Part shown: piece by piece, positions 1,471 to 61,386 of the stretch
How the letters are laid out: each line of letters starts with the position of its first letter
Position numbering within the stretch: the first letter of the stretch is position 1
Assembly: GCF_964355755.1 (NCBI RefSeq)
Contig: NC_092675.1
Span: 25,646,412-25,710,411, forward strand
DNA length: 64,000 nt
Source of the DNA: Antedon mediterranea
Lineage: Eukaryota > Echinodermata > Crinoidea > Comatulida > Antedonidae
Reading direction: 5' to 3'
Notes under the pieces: generated by a model
The model's database searches: none
Told to the model about the DNA's origin: nothing
Seen by the model: only the letters and a program-made list of their open reading frames with translations
Program-made: the position numbers and the translations under genes

Positions 1471-4400
1471 ATGTTTTCTCCAGTATACATCGTTGTCTGG
1501 TTCTCCATGGTACTTTTGCATATTACGAGATCTCAACAATGTTCAAGCTACGATTCGTTAGAATTAGGTAAGAAAAAAAACTTCGTTTTCAACTTTGTTT
1601 ATTGTTATTAATAGAGGAAAACAATTACATATAATTGACAAAAAAATAATATTAAAAAAATATAACAAAAATAGATATAGAAATGTTTTAAATCCAAAGG
1701 CAAATTACTGAAAAAATGACAATGCTGTGGGTATCAGTGGCTGGATCTCAATGGAGATACAAAAAAAAACCGAAAAGCTAAATCAAAACGATAAAGTAAA
1801 ACAGTCAGAAAAGTTAGTTCGGGCAACACTAGCCCTTCATCAGTGCAAGTGAAGGAAATGTTTTAAATATACATGTTAAATACTTCTACAACACTTTTTT
1901 TTAAATAACACATTTCTAACGGAAGGACTAAGATTAGTTGTACCAACACATGGAAGTATATATACCTGAATTAATACGAGGTATCTTTTAGGATTATGCC
2001 CTAAATTGAATGAGGTGTTCTGTCGCTATTAAGATCAGAAATAAAAAGAAGAACATAATGACTCCAAATGAGATTGTAACACAATTATAAATCTTAACAT
2101 TTTCAAAATTAAATTTTTATTTTGATAAGTGTCCGAGTTCAAAGAGGCAAGACAAAGTTCATTGTACCACGAGAATACCGTTGCAGGAACTGCTGTTGAC
2201 GGCTCAACTATTCGTCCATGTACTCACACTAGTAAGTAATTCTAAAACAATAACTAGTACAGTAGTATTGAAATTAATATGATAAAACATCAGTAATTGA
2301 ACATTTTATCTTTGTTAAGACGGTATATTTTTTGTTTATTCTAGTTTGTTTTATTGTAACTAATGTATCATTTCAAATAGAAAACGAACAGACGCCATGG
2401 TGGTACCTGGATCTCGGAACAGAAATAGTCATATCAAAGATTGTATTATTTAACAGAGTAGTTTGTTGTGGTAAGACGATCTAATAACAATTATTTTGAT
2501 TAAGATTTGACTTACAGCCAGCTAAAATACGGTTAGCCTATTAAGACAATGCGTTTTATTCAGAATGTTTTAACCACATTCATCAGACACATAATGCCAT
2601 AATGCTTTCGAAGTTAGATATCTCGTTTAAGATCGTTGGGGGTTTAGTTAATGTGACTGATTATCCAAAAACATTCCTAATTATCATAGTGGACAGGATT
2701 GTACTCCTTCCTACTGGTAAGCAATCCACCAACGTATACCAAGACAAAGCTGCGTAGAGGAATCATTACGATGACAATGTAATTTGCCCATATATGAATA
2801 TGATGATGCCATATCGCTACCATATTTGGGCATATCACTATCATTTTGTGCACATCACACTTTTTTGTCAAACTAGTTTGATATTGTAGACAGAGCTTTA
2901 ATGACAATGTTGTTCTTATTAGCGATTAGGTTACAAGGAGCAGATGTTCGTGTTGGAAACAGTAAGGATTTGCCATTTACAGAGAATACAAGATGTGGAA
3001 CAGTAGTTACACAAAATGAAGCAGAGAATATAAACCCGATACAACGTTACTGTAACCCACCTACTGGCATTGCCGGACGGTATGTCAGCATAACTAAACC
3101 TAGAGTTGTTGGAATTCTTTCCTTATGTGAAGTAAAGGTTTACAAAGGTACGTAAACGTTAATCATTTTTAACATCTTTTCAATTAATTAAATATGTTTT
3201 AAAATGAAAGCAATTTTAAATTATATTTTTTTATGACCAATATTATCAACATTCATAAAAGTTTTTTTTTTATTATGGCTCTACACCAACTGCAAACTAC
3301 TGTATCTAGCATTGTTTTTATGTTTCTAATGACGTTTAATAAACTGTGTCAATGAATGAGGATTATTAATAGTCTCAAACAGCTATTATGTCAACAGTCT
3401 AATTAAATAATTATGTCTATAGATAGTGGAAAACCTGTAGTTCTGTGTCCAGATGATATAGAAGTAAATGTTGAAAATAATCAAACTTTACATCCGGTTA
3501 CTTGGAATCTTCCTGAAGTTTATGATAATTTGCAAACAGACCTAATGGTGACCTGCTCTCCGTCATCAGGCTTCTTATTTCACATTGGATTCACCAAAGT
3601 TACTTGTTCAGCAACTGACGCAACTGGAAACGAAGGAAACTGTTCGTTTGTTGTAAATATTGCAGGTAAAAACAAGATAACAGTATGTTTTGACTATCAA
3701 TAGTACAACAACAATTAGCATTACTGTTCTTTTTTATCCTAATAATATCAAAAATAAAGTAAATTGCATACCACAAATAACGATTAATACATGACAAATA
3801 ATGTCCTTCTTATTTGCGTCCCATATTTTGAGTGTTTAAAAACTTTATTAGGATAGAACATGTTTAAACAACCTTTTTTCAAACATCCTGAATAAATGTT
3901 ACTACTGACAGTATTTTACTATAGCATTATTCATTCAATGTATTTTACATTTATAATAATGAAAGTGGATTTTATTTGTTTATTAGATAACAAGAAACCA
4001 GACCTCGTTTGCCCTACGCATATCACAGTAAAAAGCAACATTGACCAGTACGAAAATCCAGTTACCTGGAGTGACCCAACAGTGACGGACAATTTACATA
4101 AAGGTATATCAGCAACTTGTACACCTGCATCCGGATCCATCTTTGACGTTGGTTCAACTATTGTCACGTGTTCTGCAACAGATGGTACTGGAAATGTTGG
4201 AAGCTGTTCATTTGTTGTCCATGTCATAGGTCAGACGTTTAATAGTAAGGAGTACTTTTTATTTCATGTAGAGCTATATAATTATTTGTAAGCTTACAGG
4301 ATCGAAATAGTACCTTAAACACATTCTAAAATAATGTAGGAATATTAATATCAACACAATAAAGAAAATGTATACTCTGGCGTTTCGAAGTAGGCCTACA

Positions 4401-7400
4401 TAAGGTAGTTACCTATTTCAATAATAATTAACAATTATAGGCCTATTTGAGGGAAATTGTGAACTGCGATTACGTACTAAAATACTCTAAAAAAGGAGAA
4501 TTTTTCAATTATTTGTGTATGTTTCATTTTTTATTCAACATTTATTTAGTCATCAATTACAGTACATCATAATTACAGTACAACTGAAAACAGGGATCCT
4601 GCATAAAAAACTGTAGCTTCGTTTTTTTGTAGGACCCTTTTACATAAGAACAAGTATATAGAACTTAAATAAACAAAGGTGTTGTTAATCAGCATATAGT
4701 GATAAAAAGTATTTTTTGACCTGTTTTTTTATACATTTATTTTGTTTCTTTAAGATAACCGGTTTATTACCACCATTACAAGTGAATTCTTTCCACAATT
4801 TTGGTCCATATATGGGTATAAACTGTTGACTGCAAGTTAGTCTTGTGAAGGGAATTTCGAATTCAGTTTCTGTTCTGAGGTTATGAGTAGGCCTAATACT
4901 GTCACAGTAATTAAAAATATTTAAAATGTGATAATGTGGTAATTCATTGAATTTTACGTTTGCCATAAATCCTATGACGTTTACTTTGTAAATATCATAA
5001 ACGTTTAATATTTTTAGTTTCTTAAACAGTGGCTCTGAGGCTTGTCTGGATTTAGAGAAGGTAATGCATTTTACAGCTCTCTTTTGGAGTTTTAGTATTA
5101 CTTCTAACGTGCTCTTGTATGTATTTCCCCATATTAAGTTACCATACTGAAGATGAGGTAATACTAAGGTGTTATAAAGACTAATACGGACTTTATGAGG
5201 AAAGAATTCTCTTACTTTTAAAAGTATACCAATTGCCCTAGACATTTTTTTTCTAATAAGCTGTATGTGATGTTTCCAGTTAAGATTTTCGTTTAAAATT
5301 ACACCTAGAAATGTCACATTTTCTTTTCTATGTAATAACACATTATTCATTTTTATTTTAAACTGGTTTTTGTCAAAGTTCTTTTGGTTAGTTTTAAAAA
5401 CAACGTAATTAGTTTTGCTGACATTCAGTAACAGCTTATTTGCTTTAAGCCATACGTTTATTTTTTCTAGTTCAATATTCATAGTATGGTTTAACATTGT
5501 AGGATCTCCCCTTGTTATACAAGTTGTGTCGTCAGCAAAACTAATTATATCTATTTTACTACTTGCTCGACTTATATCATTGATGTAAATTAAAAACAAA
5601 AGTGGTCCTAAAACAGAACCCTGTGGCACCCCTATATTGGTGTCTTTTAAACATGATGATCTACCGTTGGCATAAACATATTGTTTGCGGCCACTTAAAT
5701 AGTTTCTAAACCACATTAAAACGATGCCTCTTATACCATAATGCGCCAATTTGCTCAACAGAATACTGTGATCGATAATGTCAAACGCTTTTGACATATC
5801 TATAAAGGTAGTAAGTGCATATTCCTTTTTTTCAAATGCATTTAATATTCTATGGACCAAGTCGATCATAGCATGAGAAGTTGAGTGTTTGTTTCTAAAT
5901 CCATATTGATTGTTGCTTAACACTTTACATTTTGTAAGATAATTGTATAATTGATTATGGATAATCTTTTCAAAAACTTTCGAAAAAATGGGCAACAGCG
6001 ATATGTGGTACAGTTAAGAAAATAAATATATAAACCAAATATCGTCATCTTAAACGCTGATCGTCATTAGACATTGCGCGTCTCACTTGTGTTCGCCACT
6101 CAGTACGTTTTTGAGCAAGCATGTGTATAGGTCTGCATGTGAAAAGTTCTCCTTTTTTATGTTTACCATCCATGTTGTTTTTGGTCTTCCTTTTGGTCTT
6201 TCTCTGAGCCTGAGATTAACAAAATAATAAACTGCAAAAAAAAAAAATCGTGAAAACAATACAGTACAAAGATTAGATTTGCAACGCCTCTCACAAAAGT
6301 AAAATTTAAACTGAACATTTGGGGCATTGTTTTTACCTATATCAGAGCTAGTTAGTGTACCGTAGTGGGTCATACGTATATAGTAAGTGTGGTATACGTT
6401 TTATAATATCTAACATCTTAATTTAAATTGTGTTTGAAATTATAAATACGCCAGAAATGATTAGCTTTACAACATACACATTCAGAACATTTTGTGTATA
6501 AAGGGAAACTAGCGCCCCCATATGGTTATTAAGATTCTATACCAAATACAAATTTAGGCGCCCGATCGCCATTTCCCTCTATTAAAACGTTTCAGTTGCG
6601 CTCTGTTGACTCTATATGAACATTACGTTATAGTTTATATATAAAGACAAATAAACGTAATGCTTTCAAGATTTTTTAATATCTAAAAAAATATTAATTA
6701 GGCGTACAGTATCATAAATCTAATAATATGTTTAGCTAAAGTTAGAATAATAATAATATAACATTATACATACTGATTCTGTTTGTTTTTTCTAGTTAAA
6801 AACAATTTTGTTGATAACAAATCTGTGTTTATTTGTCCTGAAAACGTTACTGTGAACAGCAATATTGACCAATCAAGGGCTTCAGTGATGTGGACTGGAA
6901 CAATGACCCCTAACAATGGGAATACAATAACGTGCATACCAGCATCGGGATCGGTCTTTGAAGTTGGTTCAACTATTGTCACTTGTTCTACTAGACATAA
7001 TGATGACGTAACAAGATGTCAGTTTGTTGTTCACGTGGAAAAATTTATTTCAGGTAAGAATACAATCTTCTAATTCATGTAGTGGCTTTTCTTTGTTAGG
7101 CCTGATTACAATTAGTATTTATTTTATAATGTGTACTTTTGACATTTTACATTATAAAGTTATTATTTCTTTTTTATATTCGTGGGCTTAGATTTATTCA
7201 AACTATAAAGAACTGTAGGATGTATTAATAATTATACTTCCAGCAATTGCCTACTTTCTTAATAAATACGCTTGTTCTCTGGTTCAACCAACGATCTAGT
7301 CTAGATAAGTAGCATGACATCCCAAACATTATATATTTATTTCGGTATACATAAACATACAAACAGCAGTAGCCTGGAAACGTTTATTAACAAATATATA

Positions 7401-8944
7401 AAAGATAAAGTATCAGTGGTTTCAATATAGAATTGTCAATAGAATTTTAACAACAAAAACCTTTCTAAAAAAAATTAAGATAAAGAATTGTGATCTTTGT
7501 ACTTTTTGTAAAATTAACACTGAAACAATTCAGCATATTTTTTTATGGTTGTATCCATGCAAATACTTTTTGGGTTTTTGTTTTTTCAACAAATTAAAAG
7601 CAAATGAATAGTTGGAATTATAATTTAAAGAAAACCCTTACCAGAGAATGCATTTTATTTGGTAATGCTTACAATGCTGTAAATAATCTTGTCATTTAGG
7701 TAAAATATTTTATTTACATATCTAGATGTTCTGATATTAAACCACCAAATTTAGGACTGGTTAATTTTTTAAGTCGAATTTTAAAAATAGAAGAGTACTT
7801 ACATTCGATAAACGACAAAATAGAGTTATTTAATGAGGACTGGAACGTTAAACTTTTGATTTTATAAGTAAATAAATAGGATATACCTTTTACATATTTT
7901 GTTTGCATTTTTGCTTTGGCCTTTTAATTATTTTAATTTAATTAAATTTCTGTTTTTAAGATTTGTTCTGCCTCATGTGTCACCGCTGTGTCGGTTTTTT
8001 TTTGCATATTTATTTTTCTCTTTTGTTGGGGCAACCCACTTTTATTGCAATGATAAACAATATGGTGAAGGTTACAGTATAATATATGTCTATCTATCTA
8101 TTTATCAATGAATATTTAAGTGATATTACACAGACAGAGGTTAAAAGATTATATAAAATATTTTGATATTGTGTTGAAATCTAGATAAAACAAACATGTA
8201 TACAGAGAAAATTTATATTACAGAGCTAAAACGATATAAAGATTGATATTCAGTATTAAAAAGAGATTCGATATAATATAAATATATATATGATAAAATG
8301 GTATATTGCATTATAAGATTATGTTTTGTTTGAATACTTTTATAAAATTGTATAGTTTTACATTTTGAACATAATATTTCTTTTATTATTTATATTATAA
8401 AATAACAAACTAATAAATATTGCAAAGCTAAACCCAAACCGAAGTATGGGGATACGCCCTCGTCGCTAGCCAGGTTTATTTTAATAGTTCTAGTTTAAAT
8501 CCTGGCTAGCACGTCTCCGTCATCCCGAATAAAAAAAAAAAAAAAAAAAAATAACATGTGGGTATTTCCAAATTTTTAGAAAATTCATATAGTGGACATG
8601 TATCTACCAGCGCAAGTGTTTATAAAGCAGTAATCGCAATGTTCTGTGTAATGGTTGTTATTATGGCATCTGCGTTATTTCTGGTTGTCAGGTACAGTAA
8701 CATGTCATTTATTCCATTACGATTTAAAATAAACCTAAATATATTTGAGGTAAATATAAGGTACTATTTAAAGAAACTTATTCTACATAATTATATCTTT
8801 AAAATATTAATAGGCATGAGCTTTGTGTTTATATTTTTATTTTCATTCGTGTTTTTTAGATACTATAAATCGAAGTTAAATCATCACACAATTGGAGTCA
8901 CCAAGTTAGAAGGTGATGCGATGAGCTGGAAGATTCTGGAATAA
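1471..8944 (+). CDS. Gene 1: F-type lectin / 3xHYR membrane receptor-like protein
   Basis: Nine exons, joined by GT-AG sites: 1471-1567, 2130-2231, 2381-2470, 2923-3147, 3423-3665, 3987-4244, 6796-7053, 8580-8691, 8860-8944. They give one frame of 489 aa. Residues 1-22 are a signal peptide (ATG 1471 has an in-frame stop just upstream). Residues about 24-171 are an F-type lectin domain (AVDG, CTHT, PWWYLDLG, LCEVKVY). Three HYR domains follow (172-252, 253-338, 339-424), then a membrane segment at about 441-461 and a 28-residue basic tail ending SWKILE. The fucose motif is damaged: RVVCCAIR replaces R-x-D-CCAxR, so the Asp is missing. Intron 6 carries a LINE on the opposite strand. Likely a surface recognition protein; ligand and signalling are inferred. 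Exon borders are mine, unsupported by transcripts. Confidence 0.85.
1690..1860 (-). other. Retroelement 3'-end relic with hammerhead-like core
   Basis: In intron 1 of gene 1, the minus strand reads CTGATGA, one A, GGGC, loop, GCCC, GAA. That is the order of the hammerhead core boxes around stem II, and it matches the layout of the core at 31573-31617. The base after GAA is C instead of A, and I find no convincing stem III, so it is probably decayed. No coding part remains. Confidence 0.35.
4525..6012 (-). mobile_element. 5'-truncated non-LTR retrotransposon (LINE) in gene 1 intron 6
   Basis: A single minus-strand frame (4685-5995, open to about 6010) encodes the second part of a LINE ORF2. 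It holds a reverse transcriptase with PISLLPIFSKVFEK-type start, FIDMSKAFD, GVPQGSVLGPLLFLIYIND and the catalytic FADD motif, then the LGV(I/L)LxxxLxWxxH thumb region and a C-terminal tail of the Jockey/CR1 type. The 3' side ends in an AATAAA-rich stretch near 4525. There is no endonuclease or ORF1, so it is 5'-truncated and not autonomous. The frame is unbroken, suggesting a fairly young insertion. Confidence 0.9.
6063..6240 (-). mobile_element. LINE ORF2 C-terminal fragment
   Basis: Minus-strand translation gives RPKGRPKTTWMVNIKK and, after a frameshift, AQKRTEWRTQVRRAMS. This matches the usual end of a LINE ORF2 (GRPxxxW..IKxDL ... DRxxWRxxV), as also seen in the LINE at 23317-24423. It is a separate short relic next to the LINE at 4525-6012. 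Confidence 0.75.
7330..7870 (+). mobile_element. Degenerate LINE C-terminal relic in gene 1 intron 7
   Basis: Broken plus-strand translation gives KWFQYRIVNRILTTKTFLKK, then CDLCTFCKINTETIQHIFLW and later ILFGNAYNAVNN. This is the zinc-knuckle-like end typical of L1/Tx1-type LINE ORF2 (RIL.TN.FL....C.FC....E...HLF). Stops and missing bases show decay. Relics of the same kind, inverted, occur at 51541-51960 and 63835-64000. Confidence 0.7.
8463..8552. repeat. Hairpin plus poly(A) tract before membrane exon of gene 1
   Basis: GCTAGCCAGG and CCTGGCTAGC form a 10-bp inverted repeat separated by about 30 bases, followed within 20 bp by about 20 A residues. It ends some 30 bp before the acceptor of the membrane exon. 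It could be a small retroposed sequence; gene 4 has no such sequence at the matching place. Confidence 0.5.
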
Positions 8945-13868: not shown

Positions 13869-15179
13869 TTAAATATTTTAACAAATGCTAAAAAAGTATA
13901 AAGAATGGTAGAGTGTTGTGATTGTGTGTAGTAGTAATACTGGGATACAGAAGATTTTGAACCAATAATAGGTAAGTCTTTTGGTTGCTTTGAATACGCG
14001 TTTCCTGGTGAACCTTATACACATTTCACATATTAAATAAATGATGTCACATCTGATGGCCCATTATTACACAATGTTTCCGTCAGTGTACAGCTTCGTC
14101 TGTTTTATGGCTTTTCTGCATATATCGACATCAAAAATCATTCAGTCATGCTACAATACGTTCGAATTAGGTAAGTCAAGTTTATTTTCATACATCTTTA
14201 AAATCTAATATATAGGCTACTAAGTAGGCCTATAAACAATTTAGTAAAATACTGAAATTGGAATTTTGAGAAAAACCGTAAGCTTTTTTTAAACGTATTG
14301 TATTTTATTTTATTGTAAGACTAGATGATTTATCAATTTACGATCATGGGAAAATGTAGAGATACCAAAGAGAAATGCACGGTTGTACATTACAATTCTC
14401 ATTTAGAAAAGGTATGACTTTCTAGTCAAAACAATATAATAATAATACGATTTACCTCTGCAGCAGACATTCCAATTTTTAGTATACATCCGAATAGGTC
14501 GACTACACCAAAAACTATAACTGTAATCTTAATCAAGACTAAAACAAATAAGGAATTTGGGCTAAAATTATGAACCGAATTCACTACACACCCAGCGTTG
14601 TTTCTAAATTTGATTGTAGTTATCTGCCAATTGAAATGACAGCATGTCTTTATAAGTATGACATTGTACTGTTGAAGAATAATTATAGCTTTTAAAATGT
14701 TTGTCAAAAATTGTCTAGTGTCAGAGTTCAAAACAACTAGACAAAGTACAACACATGGAAATGGTCCTGCTTCGTATGCTGTTGACGGTGGAATAAATGG
14801 ACAGTACAGCAAACGTACATGTACGCACACTAGTAAGTGATAATGCGTTTTAATTAATTATCTATTTCTAGGATTGATGCATATTCTATAACAATACTTG
14901 TTAACGTAGTTTTACTAGCATCAAAAACATAAAACATTTCCAAATAGTTTTCTTATTCAAACGTTAAATAATTTAGTAGTTGTATTTGTTTTATAATGTA
15001 AACCTTGGCTAAATACTGTAAACATGACTGACATCCTATATATCCTATTCCGCCTGCATTATTGTTTTCCAATCCTTCTTAAGCAGAGATTATTTATGGT
15101 ATACAGTTGGAAATTATAGGGGCGATATATAAGCATGAACTTCGATCAAATATTCCATAATAAATCTCATGAATTACTT

Positions 15180-15215
15180 ATGTTTCTGCCTTAACCTGAT
15201 AGGAGAAAAACATGA
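15180..15215. mobile_element. Single TIR end relic (family of 28895-29712)
   Basis: TTCTGCCTTAACCTGATAGG matches the right end of the elements at 28895-29712 and 44325-45143 (TTCTGCCTTAACCTAATAGG). No left end was found nearby, so only one terminus remains. The same relic is present in the copied intron of gene 5 near 55893-55920. Confidence 0.55.
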
Positions 15216-15364
15216 CACTAACGGCCTCACCTGCAATAACATGTATTCAATGGGTTTAGCGTATGTTACAAACGATGAATTGGGTTTCCTATCCGAAACA
15301 TAGTTCAATCGAACGTTTAATGATCAATGAAAAATGATAACCGAAAGTGAAACATTAAGAACAA

Positions 15365-16024
15365 ATAATAAATGATAATAAATGAAAACTTATATAGCGC
15401 CGGTATCCTCCACCCATGTGGCGCTCATGGCGCTTTGTGCATTAACAACGTGCGAGAACATCAGCGAATAGCGACGTCTTTAGGTTGGTCTTGAAACTGT
15501 TTAGACTAGTTGAGCATTTAACTGTTGCTGGTAAGCTGTTCCATACACTTGCGGCCGCAACGTAAAAAGATCTCTGACCCCACTGATTTTTCGCTCTACG
15601 ATCTTGAAGAAGGTTTTGTGACAATGATCGTAGGCCTCTGCGGGATGATTCGTAACGATCCACAAGGTCAGATAAATAAGCAGCGGAGCACTGTCATTTA
15701 GGATCTTGAATACAAACAACGCAAGTTTGTACTTAATACGTTGTTGAACAGGCAACCAATGCAAATCCATCAGGACAGGAGTTATGTGAGCGTTTGATTT
15801 TGTATAAGTTACAATTCTAGCTGCCATATTTTGCAAGCGCTGCAAACGTTGTATTTGAGATTTTGGTATGCCAAACAACAAGGCATTACCAATGTCAATT
15901 TTAGAAGTGACAAATGAGTGTACAATCAATTCAGCTGTTTTCTTGTTAAGATTACCGCGAATACGACCAAGGTTCCTAATCGATATGCATGCTGCTTTGG
16001 ATACAGTTGTTATTTGTGCTTCCA
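15365..16024 (-). mobile_element. CR1-like LINE 3' end in gene 2 intron 2
   Basis: Minus-strand frames 15501-16025 and 15442-15663 overlap through a frameshift and together give the end of a LINE ORF2: HITPVLMDLHWLPVQQRIKY, then RSFYVAAASVWNSLPATVK and LNSFKTNLKTSLF. The 3' UTR ends in GGCGCTATATAAGTTTTCAT and a TTTATTATCA tail. The matching intron of gene 5 (near 56073) lacks it, so insertion followed duplication. Confidence 0.88.
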
Positions 16025-20130: not shown

Positions 20131-20167
20131 AAAATATGCACCTATAGAAGTTTTTAACCACATAGCA

Positions 20168-22206: not shown

Positions 22207-22356
22207 TAGCAAAAATATATACCAAACAGCTAAAACAGGAAACATACCTAAAGAAATCAACGAAGGCATATTGCATCCAATACCGAAACCAGGCAAGATA
22301 AAAGGTCCACCAAAAAACATCCGACCCATCATCCTACTGTCGGTTCTTAGGAAAAT

Positions 22357-45409: not shown

Positions 45410-48400
45410 ATGTTTTCGTCAGTATATACCATTGTCTGTTTTATGACTTTTCTGCATATGTCGCAATCCAGAATCATTTCATCATGCTATGATACGTTCG
45501 AATTAGGTAAGTTATCCTATATCTATTTTCTCAATCATCTAATTTTATGTGCAAATTTAAATAAACAATCGGGAATCAAAATCCAAATTGCGTAACCAAT
45601 TAACACAGTTTAGTAATAATACTGATATTGGACGGTTAAGTTAGGTAACGTTATCCTTAAATGTATTGTATTAGGCTGCTAAATTCATTTATTTCCATAA
45701 TCATCTAAAGTAAACTAAAAACAAAACCCAAAACAAAGGAGAAATGGAGTGTTGTAATAAGTATCAACTAATGGTTTAGAATGAATGATTTAGTGACTTA
45801 TAGGCCGACACATTGTATTACACGATTTTAGTCTCCTGTAAAGTATATACATTCTTCTTAAATATTAACACCGCGATACTTGTCATAATTTCCAAACTAT
45901 AACTTTATTGTTCCGAAATTTAACAACGTAAATAGGTAATTTGGAATGGAAAGAGTGGCAGAATTTCAAAACTTGGATGACAAATGGATTGTCTGTCGTT
46001 GGGACGACAGTTAAAATACGCTGCTTTTTCAAAATGTTTACCTTTTAACACAATGCTCATTATGAAAATGTACCATTGATGAATATATAATAACTTTTAA
46101 AACGTTGATCAAAATTGTTTAGTGTCAGAGTTCAAAGAAGCAAGACAAATTTCAAGATATAATGTAGATGCTTTTTCTTCACACGCGGTTGACGGTGGAA
46201 TAGATGGAACGTACAAGAAACGTTCATGCACGCACACACGTAAGTGATAAATTGCAAAATGTTTTAACGAATTATCTATTTTGTAGGATTTTATACATAT
46301 TCATATAACATAACAATACGTGTAGTAACGTATTTTTAAGAGCATCGACGGCATGTAAACCATTTCAAAATAAATAGTTTCTAATTCAAACTTTCTTTTC
46401 GATCGATCGCAAAGACTTCAGCGCAACGCAGAATATAGGAATTGACCAATGACATTCGACTGCTCGAATAATCCGTCAAATCCGTGATGGTATTTTTGTC
46501 GTATTTTATGTAATGTAGGCCTAATTGATATTTCTTTCATTAAAGTTTTAGAGGATAGTCCGTGGTGGTATGTTGATCTCGGAACAGAAACAGTAATTTC
46601 AAAAATTGTTATATTTAACAGAGACGATTGTTGTGGTAAGAAGATTAAATATCATATTTGAGTGATTTTTCACTCGGTATTATTCTGAATTCTATTATAT
46701 TACGTATACTCTAATTTCTATTGCATGCGTGTAAGGTACACTTTCGTTGAAGAGTTTGTATCTATCCAATTGGACTTCTTGTACCAGTGGTCTAATGGTG
46801 GATTCCGAGTTCAAATTTCTTCTCACTCTCTCTCTCTCCCTCTCTTTCCCCCATATTTCCTCACTTTAGCGTTTAAATTATAAAAACTTCAGTTTATTTA
46901 TAGGCTTATAATATATATATATATTATATATAAACAAATCAGTGCAAAGAACATATATATATATAAAATATCATTAAATAAGATAATTTATTTCAGTTTT
47001 GTACTTTTTGCATATTTTCAAATGTATATCGCTTGCTCGTTGTATTAACCTGTAGTTCTTTCTTTATTTAAGCGGATAGATTATCAGGAGTAGAGGTTCG
47101 TGTTGGCAATAGTCAAGTTTCGCCCTTTTTTAGTAATGCACAATGTGCATTGACTATATCACGAATGGATGCAATCGCAAGAAACCCTATAGAGATGTCA
47201 TGCAACCCACCTATTTCTGGGCGGTATGTCACTGTATATAAACAGATTAGAGGATATCTTACCTTATGTGAAGTAAAGGTTTACAAAGGTGTGTACATGG
47301 TAATAAAGCTTTCGCTATTGTTGCTAAACATCATGTGTACACTTAGACAAATCACATGTTTTTCCACCAAGGTTTACAGAAATCTACGCTGATTCTAATT
47401 TCAAAATCACATTTTTTACTGCGCATTTCCTAAATATGACCATATCAATTGTAAAAAACGAAATTATCAAAATACTGTGTACATCAACAATAAATTAATC
47501 CTAAATCATTTTTTGATAAAAGGGCTTTACTTCATTTTTTTTTCAAATTGAGATTGTTTGAGTATTTGATTTGACTAGTATAATTTACGGTATGACCAAT
47601 ATATAATGAATCAGCTTTATATTAGCGGGTACGATTCTCAGATGAAAAGTTTCTTTGATTAAATTTGTGTTTTTGCAAATATAAAACGTGAAAATGTGAA
47701 ACTACGTGGAATATTCTATATTGATATACTCCTAAAAACCAGAATACTACCTGTACATTGAAAAACAAAAACGCGTTTTGGTCAAAAGCGACATTTTGTA
47801 GATAAGCTCCTTTTCAACATCGGTCAGCATAGTTGGGCCTATTTTTATTTTCATTTATTATATTTCTTGTTATTGATCTTCATACAATAAAACCAATAGG
47901 TTCAAAAGAAGGAATGCAAACCTCTGTCATTATCTTTATAGACATTGGAAAACCTAAAGTTATGTGTCCAGATGATATAGTGGTAAATGTTGATAATAAT
48001 CAGACTTTACATCAAGTTAATTGGAATCCTCCTGACGTTTCTGATAATTTCCATACGGATCTTTCGGCAATCTGTTCACCGTCATCAGGTTCTTCATTTC
48101 CAGTCGGATTCACCAAAGTTACTTGTTCAGCTTCTGACGCAACTGGAAACCAAGGAAACTGTTCATTTGTTGTAAATATTGCAGGTCAGGTCAACTATTT
48201 ATTATTTATAATAATGTATTGTCAATATAATCTGTATGTATTGGTATTTGTTTAACATATATATTTTTCTATATTTGCAATATTTTATATCGTATACATG
48301 TCAATTTAATCTATAGGTATGTGTATTTGTTCAATATATATACTTCTATATATTTTTATATATTTGCAATATGTTATACCGTAAATACAAATTGTAAGTA

Positions 48401-51400
48401 GTAGTTGTACTAAGATGACATCCGGTATGAAGCGTCTCACATACACACAGAGCCAAAATTGCATCTTGGACTTGCACAGTGTATGGACTCTCCCCTTACG
48501 GTTTCCATTAAATATACCATTTCATGCTATCATTCTAAATAACTAACTTTCAACCTATTGCATTCATCTTTTTTTCATTCCATCCATCTTATCTTGGTGA
48601 AAAGGAAGGATACTACATTTTCCTCCCCTGAGTTTATAGCCTCTCTACTCGAACACAAATAAGAACACAAATAAGATAGTTTAACAAGAAAATTTTAATC
48701 ATGTATTTTACCGCAATTTTCATTTCTACATTTTAATTAACATCGTATCTAAAATTTTAAATGAGAAAATGTATTGTTAATACAGAATTCTGGCATCTTA
48801 TTATGTAAATATACCGGTATTTTAACTACTCTAAACACTTACTTTTAATTGTCACAAATGTACTTATATGTATATAATATATTCATCAATGAGAATTTAA
48901 ATAAACGTGAGAAGAACTCACACAAGACAAAAAAAAAATTATGTATTGCGGAATTACAGAGGCCAACTAGCTAGGCATCCATATGACGTTCGTTCTTATC
49001 GTGGTTTCTTTCAACATTTTCAATTCATTGAATACGCAATGTCATAAATCAAAACTAATTGATAGGCCTAATTTTTATGTGTGCTAAGACTTTCAGGAAT
49101 AAGAACAGATAGTCTTTAAACAGAAACTATTACATTTTAAATAGACACTATCCAGAAATTAAAAAAATATCGGACAACTTCCTTCTGAACAATATCCAGA
49201 CACCTAACGCCTATTAAAATAACCACCTAGCCTAAATTAAGCATTGAGCCAAGCTGTTTTTGTGGAAAGAGCAGCTAAGTTACTCAGTACGCCGGGGATC
49301 AATTTATTAATTATAAGTCTTATTTGCACATCGTAATAATATATTATTATTGTATATTAGATAATAAACAACCAGACTTAATCTGTTCCAAAAATAATAG
49401 TAAAAAAACTCATTGAAGAATAATAATGAAGAAAGAACTATGATCCAAACTGTAGTTGGGCATAAAGGTACAAGTTGTTTGTTTTTTCAGATGATAGAGA
49501 ACCTGACCTCGTTTGTCCTGAGCATATCACGGTGGGCAACAATACTGACCAGTACGAAGATCCAGTAACCTGGAGTGACCCGACAGTGACTGACAATTTG
49601 CATAAAGACATATCAGCAACTTGTACACCTGAATTGGGATCAATCTTTGACGTTGGGTCAACTATTGTCACGTGTTCTGCAACAGATGATACTGGAAATG
49701 TTGGAAGTTGTTCATTCGTTGTCCATGTCATAGGTCAAACATTTATTTCTTGTAAGCATAATATTTATCAATACTTTAAAGAGCTTAATTTTTAAAATTA
49801 ATACTGTTATATCTCTTTTCGCTATTCACCGTGTCCGATAACGGGCTTAGGATCAAAATACGTATTATATGTGTATTTGTATGTTCTTCAGATAATAAGG
49901 AACCAGATCTAGTGTGTCCTGAACCTATCATAGTTAACAACAGCACCGACCAGTACGAAGATCCAGTCACCTGGAAGAACCCCATAGTAACAGACAATTT
50001 GCTTAACGATATATCAGCAACTTGCACACCTGCATCGGGATCCATCTTTGACGTTGGTTCAACTATTGTCACGTGTTCGGCAACCGATTATATTGGAAAT
50101 CTAGGAAGTTGTTCGTTTGTTGTCCATGTCATAGGTCAGACCTTCAATGGTAAGGAGTACTTTTATTTATATAGAGCTATGATATTATTTACAAACTTAC
50201 AGAATTGACCAGTATGACAAACAATATTTTAAATTTTTTTTAATCTACTACAATATTTTAATAAATTAAGCAGCCGAGGCTACCTGGGGTTAAGGAGTAA
50301 ATAATAATTATACAATTAGTATAAAAGTAAAGTAGTAAAAAAACTAAGGAAAATGGTGAATGAAAATTGAATAAATGAAAAAAAGAATCGCCATTTTGCT
50401 TTTCGTTATATCAAAATAGTTTACTAAAATCGTCTATATGAACATTTACTTTCAAGTAGGACTAGTTAGGCCAACAAAAATAAAATACGTAGTATTATAA
50501 TGCTTTAATTATTTTATCTGGATATTTAATAATTGAGATATAGTTATTGTCCAAAAAAGACGAACAATGCCACAAATAGCCAGAAGGCTGAAACTGTGAC
50601 ATTTTACAATACAAAAGTTAAAATCCGTTTAAATATTGTAATTATTATACTTTTATTATCATTTTTTTCTTTTTTTTATAGTTAAAAACAATGTACTTGA
50701 TAAACAGCCCGTGCTTATTTGTCCTGAAAACATTATTGTTAACAACAGTGGCATTGATTTAATGAGGACACCAGTAACTTGGACTAACCCGACAATGAGC
50801 TCTGATAATATTTTACCAACAATCTGTGCTCCGGCATCGGGATCGGGGTTTGACGTTGGTTTCACTACTGTTACATGCTCTGCTGTTACTGATGACGTAA
50901 TACGATGTCAGTTTGTTGTTTACGTTGAACAATATATTTCAGGTAAGACAATACATGTTCGACGTTCTGTTTTTTTTAACATGATGTACACTATAAGTGT
51001 ACACAGTCAAGCGGATCAGAAGGGTAATATATCCCGTATTACCTGTTTGATGTTTCTACGCGCGCGTTGTTTATGTAGTGCATTGTATTTTTATCGTTGA
51101 GCGCATGCGTAGTTGTAATTTCAAACCCGTATTCGACGGTTAAAAAAGCTAATCGTAATCGTCGAAAGCTCCCTATTGTTGTTGTGATAGCTAGAGCTCA
51201 AAATGGATGAAAATAAAGGTCGTCGATTTCAATGTGTACACTAAGAGATAAAATCGTTGCACCCTGCTTGTTCTTACAAAATACGGGAAATATCTAGCCT
51301 ACGTTCTGGTTCCATGGAATTTTCTTATATTTTGTTATACACTTGACAGGATCATCATTATCATCTATCTCGTTTTAAAATAGTTCACACACTTTCATTT

Positions 51401-52637
51401 GTTTGTTTTCATTTTACAACCCGGATTATACAATATATTTATATACATGATAAAAAAATAAAAAAAACAATAATAGCTCAGTACCACCAGTAACCCGTAT
51501 CACTGTAATTCCTTTTCGGTTAATCGTATCAAATTAGAATTTATATTATCATAATCTTATTTCTTAAAGCTACCCATTTTTCTATACTTGTTTCTTTATT
51601 GTTATATGTTTCACATTCAATGTTATATAACATATTGCTTTTAAATGAATTCCATAAAGATTTACCCACTGGCTTATTTAGTGCAGATAACATTTTTATT
51701 CTATAAATAGTAAATGCTGCAAAAGTGTAAATATAATCTATTAGCTTATCTCCCGTTCCTAGTATTAATTGTTTAAATGATATATTATTGTGATTTAAAC
51801 TTACAAAGATACTAAGCATTTTCCTCCAATATTTCTGAATAAATCTACAACTAAAAAACAAATGATTTTCATTTTCAATTTCCGTAATATCTGAAGATCT
51901 GAAGTGATAGTTTAAATTTGGCGCCAAGAATGTACAGAAAGTAATTTGTGGGTACTTTAAAATTATAGTTATTATTATTAGGTTATTCGTATGATGAACA
52001 TGTCTATACGACAAGTTTGAACAAAGCAGTGATCGTAACACTTTGTGTAATGGTTGTTATTATGGCATCTGCGTTGTTTTTGGTTGTAAGGTACTGTACC
52101 ATGTCATTTTTGGAAATTCCGATTTTCAATAAACCAGTAAATATAAGGTGTCTTATTTAAATTAACTTCAACATACATACTACCGCTTACCACTATTTAT
52201 GAACCACCGTGATTCTAAACCTATTTAATTTAACTTTCGCCGATGAGCTATGCTCGACGCGATTATGGGATCATGTTCCAAATATGAGCACTGTTTCAAT
52301 AACTTGACAGTATGATTTATATATAATTTACTCAGTGCTACGCAACACAATCCAAATATATACAAGTTTGTATTGGGATTGTTTTTTGTTACGGGTAACT
52401 CACTATGTAATGAAATTAGCGGACATACGGAAACCCTAATATAAAATTGATGAAAAGAAACAGGTGGTTCGAAAATGAGGTTGCAAATTAATATAATGTA
52501 CAGCAATAGAACGCTTTGTGTTTATATTTTTATTTTCATTTGTGCTTTTTAGATACTATAAATCGAAGTTGAATCATCACACAATTGGAGTCACCAAGTT
52601 AGAAGGTGATGCGATGAGCTGGAAGATTCTGGAATAA
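45410..52637 (+). CDS. Gene 4: F-type lectin / 4xHYR receptor, chimera of gene 3 head and gene 1 tail
   Basis: Exons: 45410-45506, 46123-46239, 46546-46635, 47073-47288, 47942-48184, 49491-49751, 49892-50149, 50682-50942, 51982-52090, 52553-52637; 578 aa. Signal peptide 1-22; F-type lectin to 173 with a complete HX26-RDDCCADR motif; HYR domains at 174-254, 255-341, 342-427 and 428-514; membrane segment about 530-550; tail 551-578 identical in type to gene 1 (ends SWKILE). Everything up to the middle of the third HYR exon matches gene 3; from about 50075 on it matches gene 1, including intron sequence. Exon 4 is itself a join of 4A-type and 4B-type halves. No lesions seen. Expected to be a membrane lectin receptor. 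Confidence 0.87.
49359..49415 (+). pseudogene. HYR exon 5' relic in gene 4 intron 5
   Basis: Copy of the relic at 35648-35705 (DNKQPDLICSK then A-rich sequence). Confidence 0.65.
51541..51960 (-). mobile_element. LINE ORF2 C-terminus in gene 4 intron 8
   Basis: The minus-strand frame gives ENENHLFFSCRFIQKYWRKM, LILGTGDKLIDYIYTFAAFT and LNKPVGKSLWNSFKSNML. This is the end of an L1/Tx1-type LINE ORF2 (E..HLFF.C......W ... ILG). Open for about 130 codons, with the stop at 51541. The formal frame runs to 52041 and overlaps the membrane exon of gene 4 by chance. A close relative sits at 63835-64000. Confidence 0.8.
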
Positions 52638-54783: not shown

Positions 54784-57700
54784 ATGTTTCCGTCAGTGTA
54801 CAGCTTCGTCTGTTTTATGGCTTTTCTGCATATATCGACATCAAAAATCATTCAGTCATGCTACAATACGTTCGAATTAGGTAAGTCAAGTTTATTTTCA
54901 TACATCTTTAAAATCTAATATATAGGCTACTAAGTAGGCCTATAAACAATTTAGTAAAATACTGAAATTGGAATTTTGAGAAAAACCGTAAGTTTTTTTT
55001 AAACTGTATTGTATTTTATTTTATTGTAAGACTAGATGATTTATCAATTTACGATCATGGGAAAATGTAGAGATACCAAAGAGAAATGCATGGTTGTACA
55101 TTACAATTCTCATTTAGAAAAGGTATGACTTTCTAGTCAAAACAATATAATAATAATAATACGATTTACCTCTGCAGCAGACATTCCAATTTTTAGTATA
55201 CATCCGAATAGGTCGACTACCCCAAAAACTATAACTGTAATCTTAATCAAGACTAAAACAAATAAGGAATTTGGGCTAAAATTATGAACCGAATTCACTA
55301 CACACCCAGCGTTGTTTCTAAATTTGATTGTAGTTATCTGCCAATTGAAATGACAGCATGTCTTTATAAGTATGACATTGTACTGTTGAAGAATAATTAT
55401 AGCTTTTAAAATGTTTGTCAAAATTGTCTAGTGTCAGAGTTCAAAACAACTAGACAAAGTACAACACATGGAAATGCTCCTGCTTCGTATGCTGTTGACG
55501 GTGGAATAAATGGACAGTACAGCAAACGTACATGTACGCACACTAGTAAGTGATAATGCGTTTTAATTAATTATCTATTTCTAGGATTGTATGCATATTC
55601 TATAACAATACTTGTTAACGTAGTTTTACTAGCATCAAAAACATAAAACATTTCCAAATAGTTTTCTTATTCAAACGTTAAATAATTTAGTAGTTGTATT
55701 TGTTTTATAATGTAAACCTTGGCTAAATACTATAAACATGACTGACATCCTATATATCCTATTCCGCCTGCATTATTGTTTTCCAATCCTTCTTAAGCAG
55801 AGATTATTTATGGTATACAGTTGGAAATTATAGGGGCGATATATAAGCATGAACTTCGATCAAATATTCCATAATCAATCTCATGAATTACTTATGTTTC
55901 TGCCTTAACCTGATAGGAGAAAAACATGACACTAACGGCCTCACCTGCAATAACATGTATTCAATGGGCTTAGCGTATGTTACAAACGATGAATTGGGTT
56001 TCCTATCCGAAACATAGTTCAATCGAATGATCAATGAAAAATGATAACCGAAAGTGAAACATTAAGAACAAGCAAGGGTTACAATATTTTCCAATATTGA
56101 ACAATACTTCATGTTATCATTCTATGGCAAGGTGAACGTTTCTGTATATTTTTTGTTATGAATAGACAATTGATAGATTCTTAAACAGTATTTTTATTTT
56201 TTTTCTAATTGAAAGCTCTCATGAATAATCCATGGTGGTATGTTGATCTCGGAACGGAAAAAGTAATTTCAAAGATTGTTATATTTAACAGAGAAGATTG
56301 TTGTGGTAAGTAAGAACAATATATTAAACTCATTATCTATTTGCATGTACATTTAATTCTAGTCGTGACCGCGGTCGAAGGTGTTAAAGAGTCGCTATTT
56401 ATCTCCATAGACTTACCATTAAAGTACAGTAGTCTAATTTAGGATGTATATTAAGCAGAATACGACATTAAGTCTCCTTTTAATGTATATGAATTGTTTA
56501 ACCATAGTCTAATCAACCTATATTATCGATGGGCAGTTAGTTATTATACTTTTAAACTATTTTCGACTATGCTGACTCAGCCTGGTATTTTGGTATAAGT
56601 TCATTTCTCAAAAAATAAACTCCAGGTAACCTAAAATAAAAGTGTACGGTTTATTCTCGACATCGCCTCGATAGAAACAATTAAACGCGCGCAGTTGGTT
56701 ATCTGAACATAAGTTAACTTGTTCAAGCCTTAAATTATACCTTAATGTTGATACCTCTCTAGCAAATAATTTTACAAAGATTTTCAAAGGAAATCAAACG
56801 AACATTTTGTAATTCCTAATATCAAAGGGATAGCTTCGAAAACATTTTATTTATGAATAATCTTCCTTCAGATATTAAATAAGCATAAACGTGCTAATAA
56901 AGATTCATCTTGGTAATGTTCATGACTACACTGAAAGTAATGAAAACTGTTAAATAATGCTGTAAATTGTTAATGTTATTGTAACTGTTAATTGTTAGTA
57001 CAAACACCATTGGAAATAAGCTGTGTCAGCTTTATGGATGTTGTTTAGAGTACCGAAACAAACAAACTGAGTATATCATGTATTTGCATTTTGTGTTTTT
57101 TTTTGCCTAACGCATGTTAATGTTACTGGTTATTAACCGTGTGTTGTTTGTTTTAAGCTGAGAGGTTAGCAGGAACAGAGGTTCGTGTTGGAAATAACAA
57201 GGCTCCACCGTTTTCGGATAATGCACAATGTGCATTGACTATATCACGAATGGATGCAATCGCAATAAACCCTATAGAGATGTCATGCAACCCACCTATT
57301 TCTGGGCGGTATGTCACTGTATATAAACAGATTAGAGGATATCTTACCTTATGTGAAGTAAAGGTTTACACAGGTGAGTACATATTAAATTTGGTAATAA
57401 AGCCTTTACAGTTATTGTTCACCATCTATGGAATTTCGACATTGAATTCGTCTAAAAAATCATTAAAAACACATCTTTGTGCCAATTGTAGACCTATGCG
57501 TACAAAACACACCTTTAGAGCCATATGTGGAGGAAAAAAACTAAAATAATACCTACAATTAATTATCTATAGGCCTAATGTATGCTATTTTATTACATTT
57601 TATTACAAAAAAACAACCCGAAAATGTTGGAAAGAAGGAATCCTGCCATCAAACAGCTTTATTTACTAACTGTTAATAATATAACAAACTATAAGAACTA

Positions 57701-60700
57701 ACATTGGTTTTGTAGATATTGAAAAACCTGAAGTTGTGTGTCCAGATGATATAGAATTACATGTTGGGAATAATCATCGTTTACATCAAGTTGATTGGAA
57801 TCCTCCTGCAGTTTCTGATAATTTTCATACGGATCTTTCGGCAACCTGTTCTCCATCATCAGATTCTTTATTTCCAGTTGAATTCACCAAAGTTACTTGC
57901 TCAGCAACTGATGCAACTGGAAACAAAGGAAACTGTTCGTTTGTTGTAAATATTGCAGGTCAGGAAACTATTGCTAAAGCTTGGTTCCCACTAGGACGCA
58001 ACACAAGAACGCTTGTGATTGGTCAATTTGCTTACGTTGCGGTAATTACGTCATTGCGTTGCGTCCTAATGGGAACCAAGCTTAATAATGAAGAAAGAAC
58101 TATGATCGAATCTGTAGTTGGGCATAAAGGTACATCTATACAAGTTGTTTGTTTTTTCAGATGATAGGAAACCTGACCTCGTTTGTCCTGAGCATATCAC
58201 GGTGGGAAACAATACTGACCAGTACGAAGATCCAGTAACCTGGAGTGACCCAGCAGTGACCGACAATTTGCATACAAATATATCAGCAACGTGTACACAT
58301 GCATCGGGATCAATATTTGATGTTGGTTCAACTATTGTCACGTGTTCGGCAACAGACGGTACTGGAAATGTGGGAAGTTGTTCATTTGTTGTCCATGTCA
58401 TAGGTCAAACATTTATTTCTAGTAAGCAATACTTGAAACAACTTAACAGTCCTAACTTAGACAATTTCGTATTTATATGTAATGGTAGAAATATAATATT
58501 TAGGCCTATTGAAATACGCAATAGTTGCCACTGTAGACATAAAGTATTACATTATAAAGTTATTTTGTAATTAAATAGTTCGACACATCCCATAACTACG
58601 TCTTACTAAAAGCCAAATTATTACAAATGAAATGTTGACGGCGCAATTTTTGTAACGGTTCCAATCCATCCATGTCGTAACACTTTATATAACGGATCGA
58701 ACGTGATATCAGTCAACAACAGCCAAGCTTCTCAAGTGTCGCGCGCGTGGTTGCTAATACTGCTAAAAAGAACATCAACGTACAAAACTTTGGCATTATA
58801 ATGACATCGCACTCTCAATGGCGTAATAAGAGTGCACTAGAACATTGATTTAATATCATGTGACACACAACCTTTCATTAAAATGACAAAAATATAGGCG
58901 TTGTATAATATTGTTGAACTATATTAATTATATAATTAATTATTATAATGGACATTTGGTTGAATGTCATCATGTTTTATTATGTTGTGTTTAATTATGC
59001 TGTAGGCCTATGTATTGAATGGTAAATGGTCTGTTTGATATTAATATACAAATGAAAATATTTTAGATGATGTACGGCCTGTTCTCACTTGTCCTGGGCA
59101 CATTACCGTTAATGGTGATCAATCCAGGGATCCAATAACTTGGAGTAACCCCACATTGACATATAAAGGTACATTGTCAACGTGTACACCACCATCGGGA
59201 TATGTATTTGACGAGGGGTCAACCATTGTCACGTGCTCGGCTAGAGACAGCAATGGTGAAGTAATAAGATGTTCATTTGTAGTCCATGTTGAAGAGAGAA
59301 TTAATTCAGGTAAGTTATATTATTAATATCACATGACAACATAAATTATAAAAAATGTATTAAATTAAGGACATTCAAATTAAAAAGGTCTTAATAAAAC
59401 ACACATACCAATCACTACATTAGTGAAATATCTTTTTAAAATTTCAATTTTTCTACTTAGGCTTACGTTTAAAGTATAAACACATTTCATAATATTCCAT
59501 TTTAAAAATTAAAAACAAGTTTAAAAATTGGATTTATGTTTACGTTTAAGTTGTTTTTAATTTACAAAAAAAAAAAACGTTTTATTATTGGTAGATCTTG
59601 CTATCGGTATTGTGTGTCCAAGTGACATTACGTTTAATACGGATCAGCCTGTAGTTGTATGGAATGATCCCGAGTTGACAGACAACGTTGGTGGTACTGA
59701 CGTACAGCCAACTTGTAATCCACCATCTGGCGCTACGTTTGAAGTTGGATCAACCAGGGTTACTTGTTTCGCATTTTATCCTATTGTTAACATCAGCTGT
59801 TGGTTTAATGTTGGGAGTACAGAACGTTCTACGCCATTTGCAAGTTAGTAACAGTTAATTACAATTGATGCTTACTGCTAACTCAATTTTCATTAACATA
59901 AATATATCGGTGAGACGTGTCAAAATTTAAATAAAAATGTCAAGTTATCTGGGTCTTCAATAACCTAAATAGATACGATGATAATTATTGTTTGAATTAC
60001 TATTCTTAAAGATCATGCGCAAAGTGCCAGAGGATCAATGGATACCCATTCTCTGTTGTTAGCAGGACTCACGGTCATTATAACGCTTGGTCTTATCGCA
60101 TCACTTATAGGCCTAATAGTCAGGTAATACTATTTGTTATATTTATTGATAAATGTTGTTTATTTTGAAGACCAAATGCAAATTCTTTGGCATCAAAACC
60201 CCATCTTGGATACGTAGCCAATTCTTCTAACTATGGTTAGCAAGTAACAAATTAAGTATAAACGTTAAAAAGACTGATTTTAGGAACACATCAAAAATTA
60301 AATAAATTGATTAACATGGATATTAATATTAATATAGACGGTACAAAACTTGAAAAAGTAAATAACTGTAAACATTTAGGTGTCTTTATCGATGAAAATT
60401 AAAAATGCATAAACAAATAGATCAAGTGAAAAATAAAGTACTATCAGGTCTGTACTATCCAAAAAAATGCAGCAATATTTTCCCTCAAAATATTCAATCA
60501 TTAATGTACAAATCTATTATAGCCCACCATTTTGACTACTGCAATGTAGTATGGGGTCGTTGTAACCAAACCCTCAAATATAAACTCCAAGTAATCCAAA
60601 ATAGAGCGCCTAAAATAATTACACATAGCCTAAATCTAGGTATCACAGGCGCTCAAAGATTTAAATTGGCCTAATTTAGAAGAAAACCAATATTACAACG

Positions 60701-61158
60701 AAGCAGTCGCAATGTATAAAATAATGAATAACTTGACACGATCCTACTTAAGAAACAGGTTCTATGAACGCAAACAAACATATACTACTAGATCAAAAGA
60801 TATTCTAAGTTTACATAAGGCAAACACTGAGTATAAAAAGAAAAGTTTCTCGTATTCTGTGCAAAGCTATGGAATAGTTTAAATGCTATAAACTCAAATG
60901 CAATTACAGCTCCAAATATATATATAATATATTAAAAAAATTATAAATGACCAAAGATAAAATATACTTGAAACTCTATGTTTTTCATGAAATCATTTTT
61001 TTTTTCATAATGTACTGTAAATGATAACTTGTGTAATAGTATAAATAGTTTTGTAGTAAGTAAAGGCCTTGTGAAAAACACCAATATGGTGATTCAAGTG
61101 TCGCATCCGTTTTTAAATAAAGTTCTTCTTCTTCTTCTTATTATTATTATTATTGTTA

Positions 61159-61228
<70 letters not shown>

Positions 61229-61386
61229 GTTAGTATTAGTATTATTATTATTATTATTATAATCTATTTAATGTTAATGACTGATGACTGTTTTATTGTT
61301 TCAGATATCGTAAAAAAAAGAAGAATAAATTTGGAATTAATATGAAAGCAGATGAAGGAACAGTGACATGGGAGCTAATGGAATAA
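54784..61386 (+). CDS. Gene 5: F-type lectin / 4xHYR membrane receptor-like protein
   Basis: Exons: 54784-54880, 55432-55545, 56216-56305, 57158-57373, 57716-57958, 58161-58421, 59067-59309, 59595-59843, 60012-60123, 61305-61386; 568 aa. Signal peptide 1-22 (in-frame ATGs also at 54751, 54754 and 54766). F-type lectin to 172 with intact HX26-REDCCAER. HYR domains at 173-253, 254-340, 341-421 and 422-504; the last two have no close copy in this window, and the fourth is the most diverged. Membrane segment about 519-541 (LLLAGLTVIITLGLIASLIG). The tail is very basic (RYRKKKKNK), then ends DEGTVTWELME, alignable to the gene 1/4 tail. The last intron holds a decayed LINE. The HYR-A/HYR-B intron is only 202 bp and half of it is a MITE. 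Confidence 0.87.
56965..57068 (+). mobile_element. LINE 3'-end remnant in gene 5 intron 3
   Basis: AATTGTTAATGTTATTGTAA and the following 80 bases match the end of the LINE in gene 2 (24398-24505). The rest of that LINE is absent. Either gene 5 lost the bulk by deletion, or this stretch is old host sequence next to which the LINE fused. Confidence 0.5.
57977..58083. mobile_element. 107-bp MITE in HYR-A/HYR-B intron of gene 5
   Basis: AAGCTTGGTTCCCACTAGGA and, reverse-complemented, AAGCTTGGTTCCCATTAGGA match, and the match continues to CGCAAC. The element starts 18 bases after the HYR-A donor. The same intron in genes 3 and 4 is over 1.3 kb and lacks it. Confidence 0.88.
60255..61130 (+). mobile_element. 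Decayed LINE ORF2 end in gene 5 last intron
   Basis: Plus-strand reading gives INIDGTKLEKVNNCKHLGVF, a stop, then QNIQSLMYKSIIAHHFDYCN and LKYKLQVIQNRAPKIIT. This is the LINE thumb region (LGV.ID....W..H ... HFDYCN.VWG ... LQ.LQNRA.R.I). It is followed by a TTCTTC to TTATTA tail (61120-61262). Broken by stops. Confidence 0.85.
61135..61262. repeat. (TTA)n microsatellite
   Basis: Over 30 near-perfect TTA units, the 3' tail of the preceding LINE. It ends 42 bases before the acceptor of the tail exon of gene 5. The poly-Leu open frame over it is not a gene. Confidence 0.92.

Follow-up and report, generated by a model that had tools for sequence, protein, structure and literature searches.

Tandem mosaic genes for predicted membrane F-type lectins with HYR stalks in the crinoid Antedon mediterranea

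Gene content and extent of the cluster

The stretch of DNA analyzed here (the window, 64,000 nucleotides) corresponds to C6:25,646,412-25,710,411 of the crinoid Antedon mediterranea and contains tandem genes predicted to encode F-type lectins that are attached to the membrane through a stalk of HYR domains and end in a short cytoplasmic tail. The tandem genes reported here lie on the plus strand. The genome comprises 354 Mb in 18 contigs; because contig C11 measures 22.3 Mb and C12 to C18 are each 0.57 Mb or less, we infer eleven chromosomes. A first-pass annotation of the window had described five such genes, sharing one architecture, between positions 1471 and 61386. These bounds are exact, the first being the ATG of gene A and the second the final stop-codon base of gene E. 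The tandem arrangement also stood, but the cluster is larger than five genes. We searched the window together with 40 kb upstream and 120 kb downstream using exon peptides, dropping overlapping matches and matches below 24 bits, and then read splice sites and phases. Eleven consecutive genes, A to K, occupy window coordinates 1,471 to about 104,830 (about 104.8 kb) and overshoot the window by 40 kb, with A to E inside it and F to K beyond. Eight of them are open (A, C, D, E, F, G, H and K) and three are broken (B, I and J). Two more genes of the family were found at C6:5.89-5.91 Mb, on the same chromosome and about 19.7 Mb from the cluster.

The common exon order is one signal exon, three lectin exons, three or four HYR exons, a membrane exon and a tail exon. 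The spliced models of A, C, D and E read without interruption from the ATG through to the stop codon, so that the architecture described for five genes applies to four of them, gene B being a broken hybrid; the intact genes in the window carry three or four HYR domains rather than the two to four first reported. Gene A (1471..8944; 484 amino acids) consists of the signal peptide exon (exon 1, 1471..1567), lectin exons 1 to 3 (2130..2231, 2381..2470 and 2923..3147), HYR 1 to 3 (3423..3665, 3987..4229 and 6796..7053, with an alternative donor possible after 4244 for HYR 2), the membrane exon (8580..8691) and the tail exon (8860..8944). Gene B (14074..26671) has a cut third lectin exon ending in a stop (24604..24803), a single HYR exon (25116..25376) and a tail exon with an internal stop (26575..26671).

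Gene C (29979..37975; 491 amino acids, three HYR) starts with a signal peptide exon (29979..30075) and lectin exons 1 and 2 (30687..30803 and 31110..31199). These are followed by a relic, namely a truncated D-like third lectin exon without a phase-1 donor (33178..33305), and by the E-like, swapped lectin exon 3 (33356..33571). HYR 1, 2 and 2b (34216..34458, 35781..36023 and 36182..36442), the membrane exon (36961..37072) and a divergent tail exon ending AIYCSVLQP (37879..37975) complete the gene. Gene D (45410..52637; 567 amino acids, four HYR) has its signal peptide exon at 45410..45506, lectin exons 1 to 3 at 46123..46239, 46546..46635 and 47073..47288, HYR 1, 2, 2b and 3 at 47942..48184, 49491..49733, 49892..50134 and 50682..50942, the membrane exon at 51982..52090 and the tail exon at 52553..52637. 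Gene E (54784..61386; 562 amino acids) also has four HYR domains, and its exons are the signal peptide exon (54784..54880), lectin exons 1 to 3 (55432..55545, 56216..56305 and 57158..57373), HYR 1, 2, 4 and 5 (57716..57958, 58161..58403, 59067..59309 and 59595..59843), the membrane exon (60012..60123) and the tail exon (61305..61386).

Beyond the window, and in window coordinates, gene F starts at 66,533, G at 74,457 and H at 82,572, and their spliced models are open over 582, 574 and 479 residues, respectively. Gene H contains one interrupted HYR exon, which was left out of its model; with this exon omitted the frame stays intact. Candidate signal exons of genes I and K are located at 89,349 and 98,820. 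In gene I the frame is broken in the first lectin exon, while K is open from lectin to tail over 453 residues before the signal exon is added. Gene J, at about 96.2-98.4 kb, has stops and missing exons.

Nine genes were modeled (A, C, D, E, F, G, H, I and K), with splicing predicted from sequence. All exons that lie between the signal exon and the membrane exon are symmetric (phase 1-1) in all nine models, and the membrane exon has phases 1-2. Loss, gain or skipping of an HYR exon therefore leaves the frame intact. All 150 splice dinucleotides are canonical, which is partly by construction, since AG and GT sites of the right phase were chosen. Splice sites fall at homologous places across the copies. 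The exact linkers are uncertain because several HYR 2 exons carry two usable donors a few codons apart.

The window also contains a few other features. A single tRNA gene was found in it, a tRNA-Thr gene (anticodon TGT; 37186-37259, plus strand) in the intron between the membrane and tail exons of gene C. A 42-base minisatellite of about 16 copies (40533-41255) lies between genes C and D and has open frames on both strands. Reverse-transcriptase-like open frames were recognized by eye in introns and between genes, including retrotransposon-like frames in an intron of gene B.

Predicted protein architecture

Pfam domain searches identified F5_F8_type_C_2 (PF22633; expectation values (E) of 6.2e-16 to 4.3e-18) and HYR (PF02494; E 1.5e-32 to 9.3e-44) in each of the four proteins scanned, A, C, D and E. 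Together with the PDB sequence matches and the hydrophobic segment described below, this bears out the initial view of a membrane F-type lectin family with HYR stalks. Compared with PDB, the lectin of gene D matched six distinct sequences, among them striped bass FBP32 (3cqo; E 6.2e-41) and eel fucolectin (1k12; E 3.6e-22). By sequence, these proteins thus contain the F-type lectin domain of about 140 residues.

The fucose site of the eel lectin is described in PMC5712786 as His52, Arg79 and Arg86, with Asp81 and the Cys82-Cys83 pair. When the nine models are aligned to the eel lectin, Arg79 and the adjacent cysteines are conserved in all nine, and His52, Asp81 and Arg86 in eight each. The full fucose motif, H-x(24-26)-R-x-D-x4-R/K, is retained in seven of the nine (C, D, E, G, H, I and K). 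A regular expression for the motif matched five models directly, those of I and K matching after an exon boundary had been moved; among shuffled proteins it matched 15 of 1800.

While the core of the site is largely fixed, its rim is not. Columns of the two rim segments, CDR1 and CDR2, vary more between paralogs than the other lectin columns (0.62 vs 0.40). Random pairs of blocks were as variable in 66 of 5000 draws, in a test that ignores the relatedness of the paralogs. The ratio of nonsynonymous to synonymous differences per site (pN/pS) is 0.90 in the rim loops and 0.53 in the remaining lectin (8 genes, gene I left out). The rim columns were placed around residues named in PMC5712786 after the paralog alignment had been viewed. 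These results suggest a pattern of a fixed sugar core with a varied rim, which is not proof of positive selection.

In the stalk, four cysteines are invariant in all 15 HYR exons of the window. None of the ten exon classes compared reaches a pooled pN/pS of 1 (0.29-0.87, without a significance test; a fragment of lectin exon 1 was used for gene I). HYR 2 is the most constrained class (0.29), and HYR 5, which shows little divergence, is at 0.87. A PDB search with four HYR domains gave no match. When 15 HYR domains were used as a profile against PDB, the two weak matches, an entry for a G-protein beta chain and one antibody chain (E 0.005 and 0.03), were taken as chance and rejected.

A single strong C-terminal hydrophobic segment is present in all nine models, with the best 19-residue mean at 2.6-3.4 compared with 1.83 for the next best segment anywhere. 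The hydropathy profile is that of a type I membrane receptor with one helix and a tail, the signal peptides having been assigned by eye.

Eleven tails could be read, those of genes A, C to I and K and two from the second C6 site. They are 25-32 residues long (27-32 in A, C, D and E) and start with R-Y. A tryptophan occurs near the end in eight of them (A, D, E, F, H, I and both second-site tails), six of which end in W-x-[ILV]-[LMI] (A, D, E, H, I and one second-site tail). An acidic stretch precedes this end motif in most tails. The tails had initially been described as distinct; they are instead related, those of A and D being identical in protein sequence and that of gene C differing most. 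Independent invention of the tails can be rejected, as the tails align and A equals D. The scan for tail exons was mildly specific: on the forward strand 8 of 15 hits were real tails and 7 were not, and the reverse strand gave 8.

Mosaic history of the copies

Comparison between genes, with blocks below 400 bits dropped, showed that the seven longest gene blocks linking the copies are 94.9-98.5% identical, for example 97% for C versus D and 97-98.5% for the 5' parts of B versus E. Similarity changes from exon to exon within a gene. The first four exons of gene B are E-like (94-100%) and its last three C-like (93-99%). Five of the nine exons of gene C (signal, lectin 1 and 2, HYR 1 and 2) are D-like at 98-99%, and its last three exons have their best match in B. 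Lectin exon 3 of gene C is 98% identical to that of E including the flanks, with a synonymous divergence (dS) of 0.00. As this E-like exon stands beside the truncated D-like one, a lectin exon has been replaced within gene C. Across the tail exon and its flanks, A and D are 97% identical. For exons of F, G, H, I and K, the best match has an identity of 72-94%. Compared exon by exon, B and C are mosaic genes. The copy-number change, intragenic fusion and broken members suggested by the first-pass annotation are all borne out, by the mosaic exon matches in B and C and by the breaks in B, I and J.

Relatives elsewhere in the genome

A search of the whole genome with the lectin query returned at least 142 exon matches at E <=0.01 among the best 150 of 170 candidates, in several clusters. 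Among the matches listed, close relatives outside the cluster are the two genes on the minus strand of C6 at 5.89-5.91 Mb. Both have HYR, membrane and tail exon matches nearby, and one of them was read directly from the third lectin exon through the tail.

For the membrane-tail module, a D-type query gave five of eight matches at E <=3e-5, all at the two C6 sites; the remaining three, at E 1.2-5.1, were the membrane exon of gene C itself, a match on C5 and one at C6:22.6 Mb. All seven matches of a K-type query (E <=3.6e-7) were at the same two sites. An F-type query gave two of its five matches at E <=6e-12, in gene F, followed by the G tail (0.009), the E tail (0.95) and a match on C10 (2.7). 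Across the whole genome none of these three queries gave a match at E <0.001 outside the two C6 sites, and the idea that the module is common in the genome was rejected, significant matches being confined to these sites.

A lone A/D-type tail exon, RYFKSMLNQSTIGITKIKRDGMNWSILE, is present between the second-site genes, within C6:5898381-5899380 and about 1.8 kb past the tail exon of another copy. It may be a relic or else serve as an alternative last exon. Lectin and HYR exon matches also occur about 12-62 kb apart at C11:0.68-0.74 Mb and C3:29.09-29.10 Mb, and there may be further lectin-HYR genes at these sites. A tandem cluster at C7:11760001-11768000 shows another F-type lectin build, in which a kringle and lectin exons occur with a region of 186 residues that Pfam did not match.

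Two observations concern other gene families. Sialyltransferases of family GT29 are greatly expanded genome-wide, with at least 150 exon matches, many of them in arrays, for example on C7, C9, C1 and C5. A predicted L-type SALMFamide ending GLRFHKGAPF-NH2 has been described in all three crinoid species examined in PMC9793003. The degenerate pattern FHKGAPFG had one match in the present genome, in the context GLRFHKGAPFGKR, and the reversed control pattern had none; this diagnostic neuropeptide marks the genome as that of a crinoid.

Proposed role and alternative explanations

We propose that these genes encode crinoid type I membrane receptors that use a fucose lectin to recognize glycans of microbes or other cells and couple this to uptake or sorting through the tail; we hold this proposal as a whole at even strength. 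The genes are presumably expressed, and the signal peptide would direct the protein to the cell surface. There, the N-terminal F-type lectin may bind terminal fucose on glycans of microbes or other cells, with the three or four HYR domains acting as a stalk and the single helix as an anchor. The short tail, with a basic stretch and a related C-terminal motif, would probably couple binding to uptake or sorting. Tandem multiplication and exon exchange by unequal recombination may have generated the family, and the symmetric exons mean that such exchange preserves the reading frame. The outcome would be a set of receptors sharing a sugar core and differing in rims, stalk lengths and tails. Other animals use F-type lectins in innate immunity and fertilization (PMC5712786). 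Immune recognition is our first choice of role here, with about an even chance of being right.

Several findings weigh against this proposal. In gene A the motif Asp81 is replaced by Val, and in gene F His52 is replaced by Gln and Arg86 by Ser; not all members should therefore bind fucose. Strict positive selection was rejected, as no class has pN/pS above 1. The rapid evolution envisaged by the first-pass annotation is not supported in this strict sense, although the rim loops (0.90) do vary more than the rest of the lectin. Three of the eleven cluster genes are broken. The signal peptides are weak, with a 19-residue mean above 1.6 in A and F and below it in five of the seven models that contain a signal exon; as they are also short, their assignment rests on inspection by eye. 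An aromatic-x-x-hydrophobic motif occurs in seven of the eleven tails, counting YCSV of gene C, and is missing from four. Neither an immunoreceptor tyrosine-based activation motif (ITAM) nor a general immunoreceptor tyrosine-based inhibition motif (ITIM) was seen in the tails by eye, and AIYCSV of gene C lacks the usual residue at position -2. Finally, constraint on the tail and membrane exons is weak (pooled pN/pS 0.67 and 0.84), which makes any function of the tail motif a guess, and reading it as an LC3-type or sorting motif is speculation.

The main rival to immune recognition is gamete recognition, in which lectins on egg or sperm would bind the fucosylated coats of the partner and duplication and exon swapping would reflect sexual conflict. 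It owes this position to two precedents. EBR1_5, a sea urchin egg-receptor candidate, combines a membrane segment with a SEA domain and seven HYR domains, three of them under positive selection (PMC5521101). In oysters, the F-type lectin sperm bindin has diversified through selection, recombination and alternative splicing (PMC5712786), a history similar to the mosaic pattern found here. Against this, HYR 2 is the most conserved exon class in the crinoid genes (pN/pS 0.29) rather than the most variable, and oyster bindin, as described in PMC5712786, is an acrosomal protein with one to five lectin domains. Overall, we consider a gamete role rather unlikely.

The lectins might instead serve cell adhesion or self/non-self recognition by binding fucosylated glycans of the animal itself, for example during tissue contact or regeneration. 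Such a role would agree with membrane anchoring and unequal stalk lengths, both of which suit cell contact. It would also agree with the abundance of HYR in the genome (at least 150 exon matches among the best 150 of 1413 candidates), which makes this domain a general extracellular building block. The turnover of copies, the broken genes and the motif losses in A and F are nevertheless unusual for housekeeping adhesion, and we regard this role as unlikely. We think a further possibility equally doubtful, namely that the cluster is a germline-recombining lectin set with a constant fucose core, a swapped rim, variable stalks and exchangeable tails, which would differ from one individual to another and would serve to discriminate self from non-self or to discriminate microbes. 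The tails of such a set, mostly ending in aromatic-x-x-hydrophobic and usually after acidic residues, could mediate sorting or LC3-type binding.

The copy number could in part be an assembly artefact in which some near-identical blocks represent two haplotypes placed in tandem, which would make the true cluster smaller than it appears. The identity of the seven longest blocks lies in the range we would expect for alleles of a highly heterozygous marine animal. The blocks interlock in different orders, however, since A3'-B5' corresponds to D3'-E5' and B3'-C5' to C3'-D5'. In addition, C and D end in different tails, exons of F, G, H, I and K and their best matches share 72-94% identity, and the second site is about 19.7 Mb distant, which together make this explanation improbable. 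It is most improbable that the lectin and HYR-membrane exons belong to separate genes or that the genes are mostly dead, because, in spite of the breaks in B, I and J, eight genes are open over 8 to 10 exons with matching phases (H with its interrupted HYR exon left out) and pooled pN/pS stays below 1 throughout the ten exon classes.

Comparison with known systems and significance

The first-pass annotation had considered the order of lectin, HYR, membrane segment and tail as not described before. This appears to hold for the combination, but not for its parts, since membrane F-type lectins (furrowed and CG9095; PMC5712786) and a transmembrane HYR protein (PMC5521101) are known. Eel fucolectin AAA (1k12) and bass FBP32 (3cqo) share with the crinoid proteins the lectin domain, the adjacent cysteines and, in most members, the fucose motif, and their isoforms likewise vary in loops around the site (PMC5712786). 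As described in that source they have one or two lectin domains, and no HYR domain, helix or tail is mentioned. Drosophila furrowed and CG9095 combine an F-type lectin with a predicted membrane segment, as the crinoid genes do, and additionally carry a C-type lectin domain and complement control modules (PMC5712786). Neither of these was detected by Pfam in A, C, D and E, where HYR and F5/8 were the domains found, and these four proteins are thus not of the furrowed type.

Sea urchin EBR1_5 is likewise an echinoderm membrane protein with an HYR array; it differs in its SEA domain and its proposed gamete role, and the word lectin does not occur in the text of the paper (PMC5521101). Oyster sperm bindin resembles the crinoid family in having F-type lectin units diversified by recombination and selection. 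It is, however, an acrosomal protein of a single gene with one to five lectin domains, for which no HYR domain or membrane tail is described in PMC5712786, whereas each crinoid gene has one lectin domain and a membrane exon. Sea urchin SpCRL offers another example of an echinoderm mosaic protein with an F-type lectin domain (PMC5712786). Searches of open-licence literature showed us no description of the lectin-HYR-membrane-tail order, although this does not prove its absence in print; text matches to HYR in passages of F-type lectin papers referred to Hyriopsis. As far as this literature search shows, the crinoid genes may represent a new architecture within the F-type lectin family.

Crinoids are the sister group of all other living echinoderms (PMC11336682). 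In this sister group, the family would make a set of cell-surface receptors out of a lectin that is known best as a soluble protein. The swap of the lectin exon in gene C and the hybrid gene B provide concrete, testable cases of how recognition repertoires may grow in the germline.

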